In this document: in pieces, positions 4,069 to 32,589 of the stretch | Numbering within the stretch: the first letter of the stretch is position 1 | Layout: every line of letters begins with the position of its first letter | Origin: an uncultured Bacteroidia bacterium | GTDB lineage: Bacteria; Bacteroidota; Bacteroidia; JACCXN01 | Assembly: GCA_937995645.1 (NCBI GenBank) | Contig: CALKJP010000133.1 | Location: 1 to 32,589, forward strand | Reading direction: 5' to 3' | DNA: 32,589 bases | Made by a program: the position numbers and the translations under genes | The notes under the pieces: model-generated | The model's database searches: none | What the model saw: the letters and a program-made list of their open reading frames with translations, nothing else | What the model was told of the DNA's origin: nothing

Positions 4069-7000
4069 ATGATCTTCAGATTTAACATATTCCTTTTCTT
4101 CATCCTTACCTTTAGTTTTGCTTCTTATGCTCAGCAAAGTGGAGTTTTAATTATTTCAGGTAATGCTCCAGCGCATATTACAGCTTGTGGCGATGATGAA
4201 GTGTTTCAACTTCAAATCTATAATCCAACTCCTTTTAATATTCAAGGTGTACAATTTATATTAACCCTTCCTGCAGGAATAAACTATCTTCCAGGTTCTG
4301 TTGTGGGAGCTATAGAAACAAATATCGCTAATCTCAATCAACCTATATTTACAATTTTGCAATTAAATTCTCAACAGTTTCTTTCCCTTAGTTATCAAGC
4401 AAAAGCTAATTGTACCGTTTTAGCTCAAAGCGCAAGTGGAATGCCCTTTCAGAATAATGCAGTATTTAATTTTAATTTATACAATGTAGCATTTTCAGAA
4501 ACGTATCAAAGTACCTTTTACACGATAAAACAACCCAATTTATCTATCACATCAAGTACTAATACCGCATTTTCTGCCAACATCGGAAGCGTATTTACGC
4601 GCTGTTTTACCATAACCAACGGAGGTACGGGTAGATTATCGGAATTGCTTTTTAAAGATACTCACGGAATAGGTTTTATAGTAATAAGCATAAATGCCGG
4701 AATATGGAACAGTTCAAATAATGTTGAAACAATAATTTTAAATGCAGCTCATTTTACATCGGTTGGAAATGGCGACACTTATTTAGACCCTAACGAAAGT
4801 ATTACTCTTTGCGAGACCATACAGGTTAATAATTGTATGGGAGTTGCATCAAACATAGAAGTTAGTTGGGGTTGCGATAATGTAAACTGTCAATTATTTA
4901 CTAGCACTGCCAATATTGTTTTTCCTGCACTAACTCCAAATCTGGTATTTAGTCCAAGTTCAAGTCAAAATACTTGTTTAGGAATGAATGTGCCCAATCA
5001 ACAAAGTTTATTAATAAAAAATACAGGAGTAGGAATAGCAAAAAATATTGATTTAGAAATTTTTCAAGCATTAACAAGTAATGTATTTACCAATCAGGTT
5101 CGCAGTTTTATTGACCCTGCTTCTATTGAAATCAGATTCGGAAACGGACCATTTCAAAATATTACTCCATATAATGTAACTACTTTGCCAAACTATGATT
5201 GTTTTCAAAACTTACAAGGAATAGGACGATTTTTTATTTTAATTGATTCCATAGCTCCTTTAGATTCAGTAAGAATACGATGGAATGTTTACAGCTGCTG
5301 TATTAATACTTGTTCAGATGCAGGTTCGAGTATAAATGCATGGCAATATAAAGGCAGTTATAAAAACGATTGTAATTTAAATTACACGATACCTGTTGCA
5401 TGGGGCAGAAGCAGTGCATCAGGGGCAAGGTTTATATATCAATTTAATCAAGGACCTATTACAATTTATAATAATCAAATTGAAACCTTTAATTTTTTAA
5501 TTACGCAATTTTCTAATACCTATCAAACCGGAATAGGAGCAAATTGGCGAATTAAGATTATTAAAAATTCTTGTTTAGATTATGTCGGTAATATGCGTAT
5601 TGTTCATTATTCGGGGAGTCCGGTTTGGCAACCTAGTAATGTTATATTTTCTGGTGATACCATTATTGGGATTTTCACAGGTAATCCACCTTTTAATTTA
5701 ACCAATGCAGAATTGCTTTTTGATATGCAGGCTAATTGCAACAATTGTGCATCTGGAGGTTTAACCAATTTACAAATACATACAAGTATAATTCCTGCTA
5801 ATGCATGTAATTGCGAAGCCTTAGTGAATTGTTACACCTATCCTGTTGAAGTTTTATGTCCGCAAAATTGTGATGGCTTTAATATGACCGATTTTGATGT
5901 TAAAAGAATAAATTACGGATTACCCGATAACAATAATGACGGACTGCCCGATAATCCTCCGGCATCGTTAAATATGAATATGATAAGAACAGACAGAGCC
6001 ATGTTTAACGATACGGTTTTAGCTATATATAAAGGAAAGATTAATACTATTTCGCAATCAGCTTGGAGTAATTTATTTGCTGTAACCCGTATTACGGGCT
6101 ATGGCATAGGTTTTACAGTTACTGAAATTCAGTATGAAGTTTTCAGAAACAATGTTCAAACATCGTTTCTGGTACATAATATCAATTTTCAGCACAATGA
6201 TTCTGTTAATACCCGAAGATTTATTTTTGATTTATCAGCTAATCAAGTTTCCGGTAACGGTTCGTTTCCTCCAAATTTTCAATATTTACAGAATGATTCA
6301 GTTGTATTGATGGTAAAATTTGTGCTGAATAATAATCTTACAAGTACTTTAATTAATTGTCAATTTTTGAATGAATTTTATACAAGTAACAGTTCAAACC
6401 CTTTTGCTTCTCCGCAATATGGATGTAATTATTTTAAAGATTATATAACTTATGTAGGACATAATGCTGACGGTTGTTGTATTGAAAATGTAACATTTAA
6501 TACATGCGATACTATATTCATTACTCAATCATTTCGGCAAAAATTAGGCTCTGTGGCAACTGTTACAGGAGGTAATTATTTTCGTTCGGAGTACCGAAAC
6601 ATTTCTTACGTAAAACGTTTTGAGGTAATAAAGCCATCAGGTTATACTTTTCTTAGCGCAAATTTCAGACAAACACGAACTGCTGGAACAAACTCTTCTA
6701 ATGCTTCTCCTATATTTAATATAATTCCTGTAAATCCAAATGCTGATACTTTAGTGTTTAATGTGGCAAATTTACATTCAAGCAATGGTGGAACTATACC
6801 TTTAAGTGACGAAGGCTATTTTTCTACTATCAATGTACGTTTAGCTCCAACTTGTGCTAATCCGCCAACAATTTCTCAGCCATTAAACTACAAAGTAGAG
6901 TTTGAACCCAATCAACGTTTAATTAATTCTCCTACACCTTTTACTATTAATGCCAGTTATGATAATCTAATACATTCGCAACCTCTGCTAGTTTTGCAAT

Positions 7001-10000
7001 CGCCTGCACCTACATTATTAGCTTTAGATAATACAGTAACATGGCAGGTAAATATTTCAAACAACAGTAATCGCAATGCAAATAATACATGGATTGCCAT
7101 TCCGCAAGCAGGCAATGTAAATATTATCGAAGTTAGAAATATTGCAACCAATCAAATAATTAATCCTGTAAACGGTATTTATCAATTAGGGCAATTAACT
7201 CCCAATGCAACTCGTCAATTAGCAATTAAAGCAACTTATACCAATTGTAATGCCGATAGTATTTTGGTTACAACAGGTTGGAATTGTAATGTATATCCTC
7301 AAAATATTTCTTCGATTGTATGTACATCGGCTTCCATTAAATTAAAACTTATTCCTCAGCAGCCACTATTAAATACATTAGTATATCAAACAATAAACAA
7401 CAGTTTGCTTTGCGATACGGCTGAATTATTGATTGAAGGTGTAAATATGCAATTAGGCACCACCTACAATTTAAAATTACAGGTAAAGCTTCCGCCCGGT
7501 GTTAATTATGTTAATAATTCTACAATATTAAAATATCCTCTAAACAGCAATTTTGCTGCTATTGCAAATCCGAGTTTAAACAATGGCGTGTATGAATGGA
7601 ATATTTCGCAATTAAATTCAATCATTCAAAACGATGGTATTAAAGGTGTTTTAGATACGTTGAAAAATAAGATTCAATTAAAATTTAAAGTTGTAACCGA
7701 TTGTAATTATGCAAATGGTTCAGTGGTTGAAGCTCAATACAGTGGTAATAGTGCATGTAATATAGCTACGGGAAATCAAGTATTTTATTCAAGTAATTTT
7801 GCAGATAGTTTTGATACAGGCTCTTATTTAACATCATTACGATTAGAAGGAAATTATATTACATCATGCGGAAATCCTAATAATATAAAGGTTTCTATTG
7901 TAAATAACGGACCACAAAATTTTGGGAATAACGATAGTATCAGCATTTTTATTCCTAGCGGAATTAATTATTTAAACAATTCATTTAGTGCTGTTCATAA
8001 TGCTCCTGTTAATGGAAGTCCGATACTAAGCAATCAAAATGGATTAAGTGTGATAAGTTGGAAATTACCATCAGGAATAAATGTTGGAGACAGTACGGTA
8101 TTTAGTTTTCAAATTACTGGGAATCCTGATAGTTTAAATTGTCGCGTATATCCTTTATTTGCGCAAACAAGCATGCAAAAGGAATTTTTTTGTGCTACTG
8201 CAAACGAAACGTGTAGTTCGAGAAAAATTACCGGAACTGATACTTTATGGTTATACAGCTATAAATCATTTATTACCATTCAAAATGTATCAGGATATAC
8301 ACTGCCCGGCAACAATGGCGAAATTGCAAATGTAACAACACAACTGTTTAATTTTGGCGACAGCATCATACCCCCCAATAATTTTACAATTTCGTTTTAT
8401 GCTGATAATGATGCTAACGGACAAGTATCGCAAGGTGATGTTTTGCTGCACCATGAAATTATAAATTCCATTATCCCCGGAGGTGGAGACAGCACTCTGA
8501 TTAACTCTGTATTTAATATTTCATCAGGAGCTGCGTGTAATTTAATTGCCGTAATTGATACGTCAATAAATAATTGTGCCTGCATGCCATGGCAGTTTAC
8601 ATTTAGCTTGCCTTTAAAAGCTGCCGTTAACGATACCGCTTTATGTTCGTCTGCTCAAGGTGTGCAACTGCAATTAGGTTATAATGCTATTGCAAATTAT
8701 CAATACGCATGGTCTCCGGCTACATTTTTGAATAATCCGCAAATTGCAAATCCTGATTTAATAATTCCGGCTAACAGTTTAACCATAGATACTTTAACGT
8801 ATTATGTAAGCGTAAATGGTATTGGCTGTACAAGTCATGATACGGTATCAATAATTGTTTATCCTTATAATAAGGCCTATGCAGGATTAGATACTGCTAT
8901 TTGCAATATTCCACAGCTGCAATTAAATGCAGCTCCTATATCGAGTATTTCGTCAGGATTTTGGTCTTCTTTATCGGTATTAAATTTTAGTAATGTATTG
9001 TCAAACACTTCTACCGTTTCAGGTTTTCAAAACGGAGTGAATATGTTGTTTTGGGAAGTTTCTAATGCTTATTGCCCAAGCAGCATAGATACGCTTATGG
9101 TAAATTATTTTGAATTGCCTTTTGTAGATGCAGGAGTTGATACTATAATTTGTGGACAAAGTAGTTTTAATTTAAACGGTACAGTACAACCGATTTCATC
9201 AAGCTATTATTGGCAAAATTTATTGGGCAATGCAACTATTGCCAATCCTCAAAATTTGAATACAAGCATTTCTAATTTAGCTAACGATACCTATTCATTT
9301 GTGTTATATGCACAAAATGGAGTTTGTCCTTTTGTGAGCGATACCATTCATGTTCAAAATTATTTGCAACCATTTGTAAATGCGGGTACTGATACTGCAA
9401 TGTGTGCAAACTACCAATTTACGGCACAAGCTGTTAATCCGCAGTTTTATACCAATATAAATTGGATAGCCCAACCAACAGCAAGCATCAGCAATGCAAA
9501 TACAATAAACCCAACATTCTCAAATTTATCGGAAGGCACTTATCAATTTATAATTACAGTTGATAATGCATCTTGCTATTCAATTACTGATACGGTTTTA
9601 TTAACGATTTACGATTTACCTCAAGCAAATGCAGGCACAGATACTTCTTTGTGTGATGCCACTCAAATTCAATTAAATGCTAATCAACCGCAGGGGACAA
9701 GCATCGGAACTTGGAGTTTAATTTCAGGACAAAATAATATAACTATTGTAAATAATACCCAATATAATTCAAATGTTACAGGATTAAGTTATGGAGCATA
9801 TAGCTTTGTGTGGACGGTTTCAAACGGCATTTGCCCTTCTTCATCCGATACGATAATGATTCAAAATTTTGAACCGATTAATGTTACACCATTAAATACA
9901 ATAGAGGCTTGTGATACTACTATCGTTAACTTATCTGCATTTACACCTCCTAACGGGGCTTGGGCATGGTGGGAGCAGGTGAGTGGTACAGCTGTTCAAA

Positions 10001-11436
10001 TTGCAGACATTACCGCTTATAATACAACTGTTTCTGGTTTAACAGAAGGACAATATGTGTTTCAGTGGAATATATCTAACGGTGGCGTATGTACTGATAA
10101 AGCTGTACAGCAAGCTGTAATTATTTACCATACACCACAAGTAAATGCGGGAAGCGATATTTCTGTTTGTATTCCTTCAAGTATAAACCTAAATGCATCG
10201 CCTGATTTAACCAATGCATCAAGCTGGTGGTCGGTATTAAATTCAGTAAATTCTTATACCATTAGTGATTCTACTGCTGCAACAGCCGTATTTACGCCTA
10301 TGGATGAAGCGGTTTATACTTTAGTTTGGCATGTTGCCAATGGAGTTTGTTCTACCTCGAGCGATACCATTAATGTTACAACATTTAATCAACCGATAGC
10401 ACAAACCATAAGCCCTATATCAGTTTGCGATTCTTCATCTATACTGTTACAAGCAAATAGTTTATCGGGGCAAAGTATCGGATTTTGGTATCAAAGTGCA
10501 GGAAATAATGTGGCACAAATTCAAAATGCTAATTCTAATCATACAAGTGTTTCTAATTTAATTCCCGGAAACTATACGTTTTACTGGCTGGTAAGCAATG
10601 GTGTTTGCCCGGCCGATTCTATGCCCGTGTATGTATCAGTTACTCAAAAACCAAGTATCGGTTTAGAGGTTTTTAATCCTGAATTTTGTTCAGGTTTATG
10701 CACCGATATGCAAGCAATTGTTGTTCCTTATATGAATGATAGTATTAAATACTATTCGTTTACAGACAACAAAGGGTCAAATTATTTAATAAATACCATC
10801 AATAAAATTTGTCCTGCCCAAAGCGGAGTATATCATTTTAATATGTATGTTGAAACACAGAATGGTTGTGTTACAGATACTCTTTTTAGTAATGTAATAA
10901 AGGTTTATCCTTCTCCTTTAGCTGCCTTTTCGGTAAATCCTGATTCTGCATATATAACACATCCTGTTTTTTCATTTTATAACTTATCAGAAAATGCCAC
11001 TTATTACGAATGGAATTTTGGTGACAATTCACAACTTGTAATCAATCAAATAAATCCAATTCATACTTATGGTGATACAGGAGTGTATGAGATTACTTTA
11101 TTGGTGAAAAATGAATTTGGCTGTGCTGACACTTCATTTAAAATAATAAAAGTAAAAGATGAATTTGCTATTTATATTCCGAATGCATTTACTCCTAATG
11201 GAGATTTTGATAATCCTACTTTTGGTGCAAAAGGTGTGGGTATAGTTGAGTATGAAATGCTTATTTATAATCGTTGGGGCGAATTAATATATACTTCAAA
11301 TGATATAAGCATCCAATGGGATGGAACCTATCAAGGTTTGGAATCGCCACAGGGTGTTTATGTATATATGATTAATGTGAAAAGTATTAGCGGTCGAACA
11401 TACAATTTTACCGGACACTTTACATTAATTCGATAA
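4069..11436 (+). CDS. Giant secreted surface protein: DUF11/CARDB-like N-terminal half, tandem Ig/PKD-like repeats, PKD domain, type-B gliding motility-associated C-terminal domain (T9SS substrate)
   Basis: Signal peptide MIFRFNIFLFFILTFSFASYAQ. C-terminus IYIPNAFTPNGDFDN...IYNRWGELIYTSND...WDGTYQGLESPQGVYVYMINV is the gliding motility-associated CTD. PKD motif YEWNFGDNS...HTYGDTGVYEITL. Confidence 0.9.
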   Translation: MIFRFNIFLFFILTFSFASYAQQSGVLIISGNAPAHITACGDDEVFQLQIYNPTPFNIQGVQFILTLPAGINYLPGSVVGAIETNIANLNQPIFTILQLNSQQFLSLSYQAKANCTVLAQSASGMPFQNNAVFNFNLYNVAFSETYQSTFYTIKQPNLSITSSTNTAFSANIGSVFTRCFTITNGGTGRLSELLFKDTHGIGFIVISINAGIWNSSNNVETIILNAAHFTSVGNGDTYLDPNESITLCETIQVNNCMGVASNIEVSWGCDNVNCQLFTSTANIVFPALTPNLVFSPSSSQNTCLGMNVPNQQSLLIKNTGVGIAKNIDLEIFQALTSNVFTNQVRSFIDPASIEIRFGNGPFQNITPYNVTTLPNYDCFQNLQGIGRFFILIDSIAPLDSVRIRWNVYSCCINTCSDAGSSINAWQYKGSYKNDCNLNYTIPVAWGRSSASGARFIYQFNQGPITIYNNQIETFNFLITQFSNTYQTGIGANWRIKIIKNSCLDYVGNMRIVHYSGSPVWQPSNVIFSGDTIIGIFTGNPPFNLTNAELLFDMQANCNNCASGGLTNLQIHTSIIPANACNCEALVNCYTYPVEVLCPQNCDGFNMTDFDVKRINYGLPDNNNDGLPDNPPASLNMNMIRTDRAMFNDTVLAIYKGKINTISQSAWSNLFAVTRITGYGIGFTVTEIQYEVFRNNVQTSFLVHNINFQHNDSVNTRRFIFDLSANQVSGNGSFPPNFQYLQNDSVVLMVKFVLNNNLTSTLINCQFLNEFYTSNSSNPFASPQYGCNYFKDYITYVGHNADGCCIENVTFNTCDTIFITQSFRQKLGSVATVTGGNYFRSEYRNISYVKRFEVIKPSGYTFLSANFRQTRTAGTNSSNASPIFNIIPVNPNADTLVFNVANLHSSNGGTIPLSDEGYFSTINVRLAPTCANPPTISQPLNYKVEFEPNQRLINSPTPFTINASYDNLIHSQPLLVLQSPAPTLLALDNTVTWQVNISNNSNRNANNTWIAIPQAGNVNIIEVRNIATNQIINPVNGIYQLGQLTPNATRQLAIKATYTNCNADSILVTTGWNCNVYPQNISSIVCTSASIKLKLIPQQPLLNTLVYQTINNSLLCDTAELLIEGVNMQLGTTYNLKLQVKLPPGVNYVNNSTILKYPLNSNFAAIANPSLNNGVYEWNISQLNSIIQNDGIKGVLDTLKNKIQLKFKVVTDCNYANGSVVEAQYSGNSACNIATGNQVFYSSNFADSFDTGSYLTSLRLEGNYITSCGNPNNIKVSIVNNGPQNFGNNDSISIFIPSGINYLNNSFSAVHNAPVNGSPILSNQNGLSVISWKLPSGINVGDSTVFSFQITGNPDSLNCRVYPLFAQTSMQKEFFCATANETCSSRKITGTDTLWLYSYKSFITIQNVSGYTLPGNNGEIANVTTQLFNFGDSIIPPNNFTISFYADNDANGQVSQGDVLLHHEIINSIIPGGGDSTLINSVFNISSGAACNLIAVIDTSINNCACMPWQFTFSLPLKAAVNDTALCSSAQGVQLQLGYNAIANYQYAWSPATFLNNPQIANPDLIIPANSLTIDTLTYYVSVNGIGCTSHDTVSIIVYPYNKAYAGLDTAICNIPQLQLNAAPISSISSGFWSSLSVLNFSNVLSNTSTVSGFQNGVNMLFWEVSNAYCPSSIDTLMVNYFELPFVDAGVDTIICGQSSFNLNGTVQPISSSYYWQNLLGNATIANPQNLNTSISNLANDTYSFVLYAQNGVCPFVSDTIHVQNYLQPFVNAGTDTAMCANYQFTAQAVNPQFYTNINWIAQPTASISNANTINPTFSNLSEGTYQFIITVDNASCYSITDTVLLTIYDLPQANAGTDTSLCDATQIQLNANQPQGTSIGTWSLISGQNNITIVNNTQYNSNVTGLSYGAYSFVWTVSNGICPSSSDTIMIQNFEPINVTPLNTIEACDTTIVNLSAFTPPNGAWAWWEQVSGTAVQIADITAYNTTVSGLTEGQYVFQWNISNGGVCTDKAVQQAVIIYHTPQVNAGSDISVCIPSSINLNASPDLTNASSWWSVLNSVNSYTISDSTAATAVFTPMDEAVYTLVWHVANGVCSTSSDTINVTTFNQPIAQTISPISVCDSSSILLQANSLSGQSIGFWYQSAGNNVAQIQNANSNHTSVSNLIPGNYTFYWLVSNGVCPADSMPVYVSVTQKPSIGLEVFNPEFCSGLCTDMQAIVVPYMNDSIKYYSFTDNKGSNYLINTINKICPAQSGVYHFNMYVETQNGCVTDTLFSNVIKVYPSPLAAFSVNPDSAYITHPVFSFYNLSENATYYEWNFGDNSQLVINQINPIHTYGDTGVYEITLLVKNEFGCADTSFKIIKVKDEFAIYIPNAFTPNGDFDNPTFGAKGVGIVEYEMLIYNRWGELIYTSNDISIQWDGTYQGLESPQGVYVYMINVKSISGRTYNFTGHFTLIR
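8878..10650 (+). repeat. About seven tandem ~80-85-aa (~250-bp) Ig/PKD-like repeats within the giant protein
   Basis: Recurring pattern NAG(T/S/V)D(T/I)..C....(I/L)(N/Q)LNA....G.W....(I/V)....(V)..L..G.Y.F.W.VSNG.C...SDT; seen e.g. as YAGLDTAIC, DAGVDTIIC, NAGTDTAMC, NAGTDTSLC, NAGSDISVC. Confidence 0.8.
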
Positions 11437-28946: not shown

Positions 28947-30296
28947 ATGAAAAAGCTGATTCTATTACAAACCACAATTTTGTCGATTGTATTTTTTTCA
29001 TGTTCTAAAATAAATAAAGACGACACGTTTACTCATAAAAAATACTGCGATACAACGGAGGTTATTATTAACCAGGCAAGTATTGAAGGCTATACGCATA
29101 AAATGTCTTATCAACCCGGAGAGAAAATAGAATTTAAAATACATACATTAAGTCCGGTTTTTAATATTGAAATTTTCAGAAATGGTTCCCCAAATGCCAT
29201 AGTTCATCAGCAAAATGGAATAGAAGGGTTGCGTCAAAATTATCATTGTTACTCATATTCTTATGGATGTAACTGGCAAACGGTTTATGAAGTAACCGTT
29301 GAAGCAAGCTGGAAATCCGGTTTATATTCTGCAAAACTTGTTAATCCTGATGATGGAAAAGTTGGCTGGATAACTTTTGTAATTAAAAAAGATGCACTGG
29401 CTCCAAAAGCTGATATAGCTGTATTAGCAAGTACTAATACATGGAATGCTTATAACGACTGGGGAGGAGGTTCTTTTTATGATTTTGAAATGGATGAAAA
29501 TGTAATAAGTTCAGAAAATATTAGTTTTCAGCGTCCAAATAAATATGCCGATCCAACTGCCAGAGGAGGACATTTAGCCGCAGCAGAAACTTATTTAATG
29601 CGTTGGATGGATGATAATGGATATAAATGGGACCAATATTCGGAGCACGATTTAATGCTAGAAGAAAATTTACTCACAGGTTACAAAACAATAGTTTTAA
29701 ACTCACATCCCGAATATTATACTAAAGAAATGTATGATAGACTTTATCGCTATGTTCAAAACGGTGGTCACGTGGCCTACTTAGGTGGTAATGCAATATG
29801 GAGTAAAGTAGTATGGGATAGCAAAAGAGATATTTTAGAAATAAGAAGAAATAAACAACGCCATACTTTTACATCAGAACTTGGAGGTTTATGGCGTGAT
29901 TTAGGTATGCCTGAATCAACTTTAATGGGAGTGCAATATGATGAAAGAGGATACTTGACATGGCACCCATACCGAGTTATAGATAAAAACTTTTGGGTAT
30001 TTGCCAATACCGGATTAAACAAAAATGATACATTTGGTGAAGGTTGCCCTGATACCGGTGGTGCATCAGGACATGAAACAGATAAAGTAACTCCTGATTC
30101 GCAAAAAATACCTACACTTAAAATAATTGCAAAAGGAACAAATCCGAATTTTGGCGGAGCGGATATGATTTATTACGAAACCAGCACCGGAGGCAAAGTG
30201 TTTTCAGTAGGTTCTATTAGTTATACCAGTTGTTTGTGCTGCGATTCAATAGTTTCAAAAATTACCAGAAATGTATTAAACGAGTTCATCAAATAA
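28947..30296 (+). CDS. Lipoprotein with N,N-dimethylformamidase beta-subunit-like domain
   Basis: Lipobox in MKKLILLQTTILSIVFFSCSK. DIAVLASTNTWNAYNDWGGGSFYDF, TVVLNSHPEYYTKEMYD-like segment, and ADMIYYETSTGGKVFSVGSISYTSCL resemble the DMFase large-subunit family. Confidence 0.65.
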   Translation: MKKLILLQTTILSIVFFSCSKINKDDTFTHKKYCDTTEVIINQASIEGYTHKMSYQPGEKIEFKIHTLSPVFNIEIFRNGSPNAIVHQQNGIEGLRQNYHCYSYSYGCNWQTVYEVTVEASWKSGLYSAKLVNPDDGKVGWITFVIKKDALAPKADIAVLASTNTWNAYNDWGGGSFYDFEMDENVISSENISFQRPNKYADPTARGGHLAAAETYLMRWMDDNGYKWDQYSEHDLMLEENLLTGYKTIVLNSHPEYYTKEMYDRLYRYVQNGGHVAYLGGNAIWSKVVWDSKRDILEIRRNKQRHTFTSELGGLWRDLGMPESTLMGVQYDERGYLTWHPYRVIDKNFWVFANTGLNKNDTFGEGCPDTGGASGHETDKVTPDSQKIPTLKIIAKGTNPNFGGADMIYYETSTGGKVFSVGSISYTSCLCCDSIVSKITRNVLNEFIK

Positions 30297-30298
30297 CA

Positions 30299-31114
30299 CT
30301 AAACTGTTTTAGTGTTTGTTGAGCGCAGTTTAATTGCTGTAATTACTTTTTTGGTATATAAAGGAAAATCACCTTTCATCATCCAATCGTAATAAGACGG
30401 TTCTGTTTTAAAAACTTCTTCAACCGGCTTACCGGAGTGTTTCCCAAAATTAAATACTTCTATCCCTTTATCGTTGTATATTATTCTTCCTGCCAAATCA
30501 ACGTTTTTGTTAATGTTAGTAAAGTCATGAAGGGCTTTAATATCGTTTTTTACGGGAATAAATTTGTTGCCGTTTTTGTCTTCAATTTCAACTCCATCGT
30601 AACGTTGCAACTGTGACAGGAATACTTCATACGTAGCATTAATATCTGCTAAAGCACTATGTGCATTTACCAATTCTTTTCCGCAATAAAATTTGTAAGC
30701 CGCTTTTAAAGTTCGTTGTTCCATTTGGTGAAAAATATTTTGTACATCAACAAATCTTCTGCTGCTTAAATCAAAATCAATTCCTGCACGTAAAAATTCT
30801 TCTACCAAAATAGGAATATCAAACTTATTTGAATTATAACCTGCCAAATCGCAACCTTTTAAAAAGTTGGCAATAGATGGTGCCAGATCTTTAAAAGTTG
30901 GTTCATTTTTCACCTTTTCATTACTAATTCCATGAATTGAAGTAGCTATTGGAGGAATTGGTATTTCAGGGTTTATAAGTTTTAAATATTCTTCTTTATC
31001 ACCATTTGGATGTATTTTTAAAATGGCTATTTCTACTATTCTGTCGCTTGCTACGTTGGTGCCTGTTGTTTCTAAATCAAAAAAAGCTAAGGGGCGAGTT
31101 AAATTTAGTTGCAT
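30299..31114 (-). CDS. DnaQ-like 3'-5' exonuclease (DNA polymerase III epsilon subunit family)
   Basis: DEDD motifs: AFFDLETTGTNVASDRIVEIAI (ExoI), CDLAGYNSNKFDIPILVEEF (ExoII), NAHSALADINATYEVF (ExoIII). Additional C-terminal domain (FNFGKHSGKPVEEVFKTEPSYYDWMMKGDFP). Confidence 0.93.
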   Translation of the reverse strand: MQLNLTRPLAFFDLETTGTNVASDRIVEIAILKIHPNGDKEEYLKLINPEIPIPPIATSIHGISNEKVKNEPTFKDLAPSIANFLKGCDLAGYNSNKFDIPILVEEFLRAGIDFDLSSRRFVDVQNIFHQMEQRTLKAAYKFYCGKELVNAHSALADINATYEVFLSQLQRYDGVEIEDKNGNKFIPVKNDIKALHDFTNINKNVDLAGRIIYNDKGIEVFNFGKHSGKPVEEVFKTEPSYYDWMMKGDFPLYTKKVITAIKLRSTNTKTV

Positions 31115-31117
31115 GAT

Positions 31118-32450
31118 TTATTTGGGTAAGAGTTTAAAATCTTTTTCTATTAATTCCTGAAATGAATTTTTTCCCAGTATGGTAATGTCTTCAGTATAGG
31201 TATTAAAACCTTCAGCAGTAATAACTATCTTATATTTACCGGGAGGCATAGCCATTACAAATTTATTTTTACTGGTGGGAGTATAGGTGCCGTACTCATC
31301 TTGTGAGCTTAGTTCAATTAAGCTTACAGAGGCATCTTTAACAGTTTTAACTCCATCGGTAGATGCAACTGTACATTTTACTATTGTTTGTCTATCATCT
31401 CTATTATTAAAGTTTACACGATAAATATCTAAATCGCCCATTCCTTCTTTTCTTACATCTGATACATAGGCATATTTCATGTTTTGTGAAAAAAATATGG
31501 TCATATTATCTGCGGGGTTATTAATGGGATAGCCTATATTTCTGGGTTTTGTCCATGTGTTTTTTTCGGAATCGTAAATACTGAAAAAAATATCATATCC
31601 TCCTAATCCTTTATGACCTTGTGAGGCAAAATAAAGGGTTTTTCCATCAGGCATCATATTGGGAAAATCTTCGTTGTAGGGGGTATTAATAGTGGGTCCC
31701 AGATTTTGAGGTTCAGCCCAATCGCCATTGGGTAATTTTCTGGTCATCCATATATCTGTTCCGCCTAAACCTCCGGGTCTGTTGCTGGCAAAAAATAATA
31801 TATCTCCTTCTGCATTTAAAGAGGCAGAGGTTTCAAGGCTTTCGGAGTTTACGGATTTACCAAGTTTTACGCGGGGGCCAAAATTCTTACCTTTTCGTTC
31901 TGATACATAGATTTCGCCAACTTCTTTGATATGATCTATATATATAAAAATTTTATTTCCATCTACAGAAATCCCAACTACTTCTTCATCAAGACCGGTG
32001 TTAATTTGGGGGCCAATATTTTTTGCTTTTTCAAATTGTCCGTTTACTTCTTGTGAAATGTAAATATCTGATGAATAATATCCATCGTATTCTAAAACTG
32101 CTTGTCCGCCTTTTCTTCTGGATGTAAATACAAAAAAAGATTCATCCGGCGGAACAAATGGATAGTAGTCGGGATATTCAGAATTAATACTTGGTCCTAA
32201 ATTTTCAAAAGTAACATCTAAAGGATATTTAATCATTTCTTTTCCTAAGTTACATTGCTCTATGTAACGATCGGCCTCAGCTTTTTCTTTTTCTCCTACC
32301 ATGCTTTTATATTTTGTAAAAGCTTTAATAGCATCATCAAATTTTAATCCATGTTGATAAGCTTTGCCTAAATATAAAACCATTTCAGGCGTAACTTTGC
32401 TTGCTTTGTTTGCTTTTTCGAGATAAGGAATGTTTTTTTCGCGTTTACAT
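31118..32450 (-). CDS. TPR/PD40 (WD40-like) repeat protein of the OmpA-associated type, apparently lacking its native N-terminus
   Basis: NIPYLEKANKASKVTPEMVLYLGKAYQHGLKFDDAIKAFTKY (TPR), several PD40 motifs (ILFFASNRPGGLGGTDIWMTRKLPNGDWAEPQNLGPTINT, TLYFASQGHKGLGGYDIFFS), C-terminal carboxypeptidase-regulatory-like segment. The ORF track extends to 32542, but its first ~32 aa are antisense to the +strand N-terminus below and look spurious. Confidence 0.8.
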
Positions 32451-32589
32451 ATAACATTTTTTGTTGTGCTCTTAATGAGTGTTAATGATCTTATTGCACA
32501 AGATTTAGACCCACGCGAAATTGATGAACACTTTAAATACAAAAACTATTTGGCTGCCATAAAAAGTTTGGAAAAATTCCTAAAAAAAG
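32430..32589 (+). CDS. Partial N-terminus of a TPR/PD40-type secreted protein (signal peptide + first TPR), continuing past the window end
   Basis: Stop-free + frame: ...HITFFVVLLMSVNDLIAQDLDPREIDEHFKYKNYLAAIKSLEKFLKK. Signal peptide ending AQ|D, then a TPR-like helix pair. Not in the supplied ORF track, presumably because it is short or truncated. The true start codon is uncertain because the junction may fall within the signal peptide. Confidence 0.6.
   Translation, partial: MFFSRLHITFFVVLLMSVNDLIAQDLDPREIDEHFKYKNYLAAIKSLEKFLKK

Follow-up and report, generated by a model that had tools for sequence, protein, structure and literature searches.

A very probable fold-back assembly chimera at a contig end accounts for a TPR/PD40 gene that appears split into two opposed halves

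We conclude with high confidence that the final ~180 bp of the window, the 32,589-nucleotide stretch of DNA analysed here, is a fold-back chimera, in which an inverted join has skipped ~170 bp of a single gene at a site that varies between strains. The window covers contig C133 completely (1–32589), and its final base is the end of the contig. A chimeric or fold-back join near the contig end was the option favoured in the original prediction, and it is borne out by an intact N-terminus on another contig of the same genome (C73), by exact 99-bp end overlaps between the two contigs, and by the unbroken state of the gene, with the same neighbours, in relatives.

At the right end of the window (32409–32589) the N-terminus is missing from a TPR/PD40 gene on the minus strand, and a signal peptide and a first TPR are encoded on the plus strand of this stretch. 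The open reading frame at 31118–32542 (minus strand, 474 aa) encodes the TPR/PD40 protein, but its initial ~30 residues are without homology, and it aligns with the protein of relative G002 only from its own residue 34, which corresponds to residue 75 of 525 in G002. This agrees with the earlier observation that the start of the frame is not protein-like and lacks a signal peptide. Clear homology begins at IPYLEKANK, in the second TPR, and runs from 32431 downwards; the gene body from there to the stop codon (31118–32431, minus strand) contains PD40 (Pfam, 2.8e-18) and CarboxypepD_reg-like domains and is 53% identical to the protein of G002 (445 columns, starting at residue 75 of that protein). 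The motif KREKN (32432–32446, minus strand) need not be coding, as the same bases are used by the plus-strand ATG and signal peptide. From the ATG at 32430 to the window end, the plus strand translates as MFFSRLHITFFVVLLMSVNDLIAQDLDPREIDEHFKYKNYLAAIKSLEKFLKK; this misplaced N-terminal fragment (32430–32589) consists of a variant signal peptide and the start of the first TPR, and its frame runs off the contig, as had been described. The plus-strand piece matches residues 2–53 of the N-terminal query taken from C73 and the minus-strand body matches residues 75–119, so that the two do not overlap in protein coordinates, again as anticipated. The split is far beyond chance, given that the pieces are identical to C73 at 99/99 bp and 119/123 bp.

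The source assembly comprises 2.35 Mb in 207 contigs and is 86% complete. When the same genome was searched at the DNA level, both halves of the gene were located on C73 (5403 bp). Positions 5108–5206 (plus strand) of C73 are identical to 32491–32589 (plus strand) of the window (99/99), and C73 5281–5403 matches 32431–32309 of the window, on the minus strand, at 119 of 123 bases. On C73 the two halves have the same orientation within a single frame (MMLYRFYISMYILLFISNHTIIAQDLDPREIDEHFKYKNYLAAIKSLEKFLKKEPNNPDYNYKMGFCYLNTNIDKTAAIPYLEKANKASKV...) that is still open at the end of the contig: the segment 5047–5403 encodes MMLYRFYISMYILLFISNHTIIAQDLDPREIDEHF...NTNIDKTAAIPYLEKANK... in frame, and C73 ends inside the gene. 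Joining C73 to the reverse of C133 yields a protein of 515 aa, 52% identical to the protein of G002, a relative from the same family, over 518 columns (G002 residues 2–519 of 525), with a signal peptide (judged by eye), TPR and PD40 (both by Pfam) in one frame. The TPR/PD40 gene is therefore intact and in one piece in the genome of this organism.

In four relatives (G002, G025, G034, and G022) two consecutive PD40 genes are followed by the TPR/PD40 gene and an exonuclease gene, all on one strand. Here C73 holds both PD40 genes, of which the first has an OmpA domain, together with the N-terminus of the TPR/PD40 gene, and C133 holds the body of that gene and the exonuclease (RNase_T) gene, the latter at 30299–31114 (minus strand) as the downstream neighbour that is kept in all four relatives. 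Since the order seen in the relatives is divided between C73 and C133, and is restored when C73 is joined to reversed C133, the two contigs are neighbours, and the true order is C73 followed by reversed C133. No contig overlapping the left end of C73 was found. The closest homologs in relatives are typically 515–570 aa long; homologs were uninterrupted frames, and an inverted N-terminus was absent from all relatives searched. A search for the fold-back DNA in the same order, covering three genomes only, returned contigs of the organism itself and, in G002, a weak TPR match, but nothing else, and a search for related loci gave a single remote homolog (25% identity) in MAG Flavobacteriales SSF44. 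Compared with the TPR-PD40 gene clusters of Bacteroidota, which have PD40-OmpA neighbours, the gene is a normal member: it has a signal peptide, TPRs, PD40 repeats and a CarboxypepD_reg-like domain, PD40 genes and an exonuclease adjoin it, and with C73 and C133 combined it shows no differences. Elsewhere in the window we noted a 2455-aa secreted repeat protein (4069–11436) with a C-terminus resembling, by eye, gliding-motility/type 9 secretion sorting domains, and a predicted secreted protein (28947–30296) with a strong match to the C-terminal domain of the N,N-dimethylformamidase beta-subunit (PF20254, 3.8e-75).

The lengths of the overlaps bear the signature of the assembly process. The window tail and C73 share exactly 99 bp at two places, each touching a contig end. 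One block (32491–32589, plus strand) is terminal in C133; the other (32309–32407, minus strand) corresponds to the right end of C73 (5305–5403) and represents the true continuation from C73 into C133. Among the 167 ends of 84 contigs that were sampled, there are eight other pairs with an overlap of exactly 141 bp that reaches the physical end of both contigs. Four of the sampled ends contained N; such bases were present in ends of contigs C35 and C75. MEGAHIT works through the k-list 21, 29, 39, 59, 79, 99, 119, and 141, and its contigs that are broken by repeats or variation have common end sequences of maxK length (PMC10914622). As 99 and 141 are both in this list, the join is a path in a de Bruijn graph, and we infer that the assembler was MEGAHIT. 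The overlap lengths directly show the window tail to be a path through the graph that connects two 99-mers of the gene on C73, the terminal block of C133 being the second node of this chimeric path. The situation resembles the contig breaks covered by the COBRA description (PMC10914622) in that an exact sequence of k length is common to contig ends. It differs from those breaks, which are due to repeats or within-population variation, in that one of the paths here is false and inverted, and the shared length is 99 instead of the 141 found at other linked ends. This discrepancy in length, which presumably places the 99-bp path at an earlier k step than the 141-bp links, counts against a fold-back chimera. 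It also counts against it that the junction was assembled at all, which means that some reads or lower-k contigs backed it.

Between the two 99-bp blocks lie 83 bp (32408–32490) that match C73 exactly on neither side and contain the fold-back breakpoint, which can be placed no better than about 32429–32444. No other copy of this junction was found in the organism's own assembly. On its minus-strand side (32408–32431, IPYLEKAN) there are four differences from C73, all of them synonymous; on its plus-strand side (32430–32490) a divergent signal peptide aligns to C73 without gaps, with 36 of 61 bases identical, compared with 20.6 ± 3.3 for shuffled sequences. The synonymous changes and the alignable signal peptide mark the 83 bp as an allele of this gene that has diverged, and such a divergent junction fits the presence of a second strain at the misjoin. 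Five further pairs of contig ends (C4/C31, C25/C74, C18/C43, C53/C74, and C13/C170) overlap at 90–94% identity and not as exact k-mer overlaps, which suggests that two strains are probably mixed in the genome bin. A strain mixture at the misjoin is thus what the data point to, in addition to what the original prediction had proposed. Two quite different signal peptides (window 32430–32490 and C73 5047–5107, 59% identical at the DNA level) are followed by the same mature N-terminus (99/99 bp); strains may have recombined at the boundary of the signal peptide, or the difference may be a by-product of the chimeric join.

The join can be reconstructed as follows. On the real chromosome C73 continues into reversed C133, with the TPR/PD40 gene as one frame of 515 aa. 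The assembly path ascends the minus strand of the gene as far as the second TPR, then changes strand and returns by ~170 bp to where the gene begins. From there it proceeds forward across the signal peptide and first TPR until the contig ends. The 83-bp junction may come from reads of the second strain that became chimeric through a graph error or through template switching at the amplification or library stage, and the assembler would have kept it because it leads into two true 99-mers. A chimeric fragment of the second strain, inverted and lacking ~170 bp, accounts for all of these features. The chimeras of displacement amplification are mostly of this form, an inverted join combined with an intervening deletion making up >85% of 475 (PMC1855051). 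Like the join seen here, these template-switching products have a second segment that is inverted and derived from nearby in the same locus, with a stretch skipped in between (~170 bp in our case), and short shared bases are possible at the join. They differ in that the junction here would stem from a second strain variant and that the exact breakpoint is blurred. Other library or graph errors would have the same appearance as a displacement-amplification chimera.

A real rearrangement carried by a minor strain is very unlikely to be the source of the join. Such an inversion or inverted duplication would place the signal-peptide end head-to-head with the second TPR, with the assembler having taken the junction from that strain, and in its favour neither side of the junction is identical to C73, so that it does not simply come from the C73 strain. 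However, a chimeric read from the second strain explains the divergent junction equally well, and other parts of the bin also show strain mixture; the rearrangement is seen in none of the relatives, would disrupt a conserved gene and gene cluster, and is required by nothing that we observed. The fuller version, in which a co-occurring strain combines a real inverted rearrangement with a divergent signal peptide on an otherwise identical mature N-terminus, as from recombinational exchange of signal peptides, is slightly harder still to credit. An inversion that broke the gene, the second option originally raised, found no positive support: no inverted repeats long enough to be useful flank the site, and inspection of the translations of the window and C73 showed no apparent recombinase-like open reading frame nearby.

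A phase-variable N-terminus or promoter switch, in which site-specific inversion would swap signal peptides, can hardly be entertained. The two versions of the signal peptide in front of an identical mature N-terminus are what such a switch could produce; however, it should give a complete gene in either orientation, whereas the window arrangement lacks ~170 bp and both halves are incomplete, so that a flip would delete this stretch and deprive the second half of an N-terminus. A single arrangement is fixed in the relatives, and inverted repeats able to drive an inversion were only short or imperfect at the site (the best exact repeat being 8 bp); none of them bracketed the flipped piece by lying at its two breakpoints. 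Inspection of the translations of the window and C73, with six proteins scanned against Pfam, revealed no apparent recombinase or invertase. Like the inversion, this option of the original prediction lacks positive support. The same negligible probability attaches to two divergent paralogs placed head to head, one of them decayed: the genome does hold several members of the family, but both pieces map to the single gene on C73 at 99/99 and 119/123 bases, and the nearest other paralogs reach 72–78%.

The feature at the end of the window, which we attribute to a fold-back chimera, is an ordinary assembly-level artefact and carries no evidential value for an inversion or a genetic switch in this organism. 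It provides a clear example of a small fold-back error, located where a contig of a metagenome-type assembly ends, that can pass for an inversion, a phase-variable switch or a pseudogene. The practical lesson is to look first for exact end overlaps of k-mer length among the other contigs of the same assembly.
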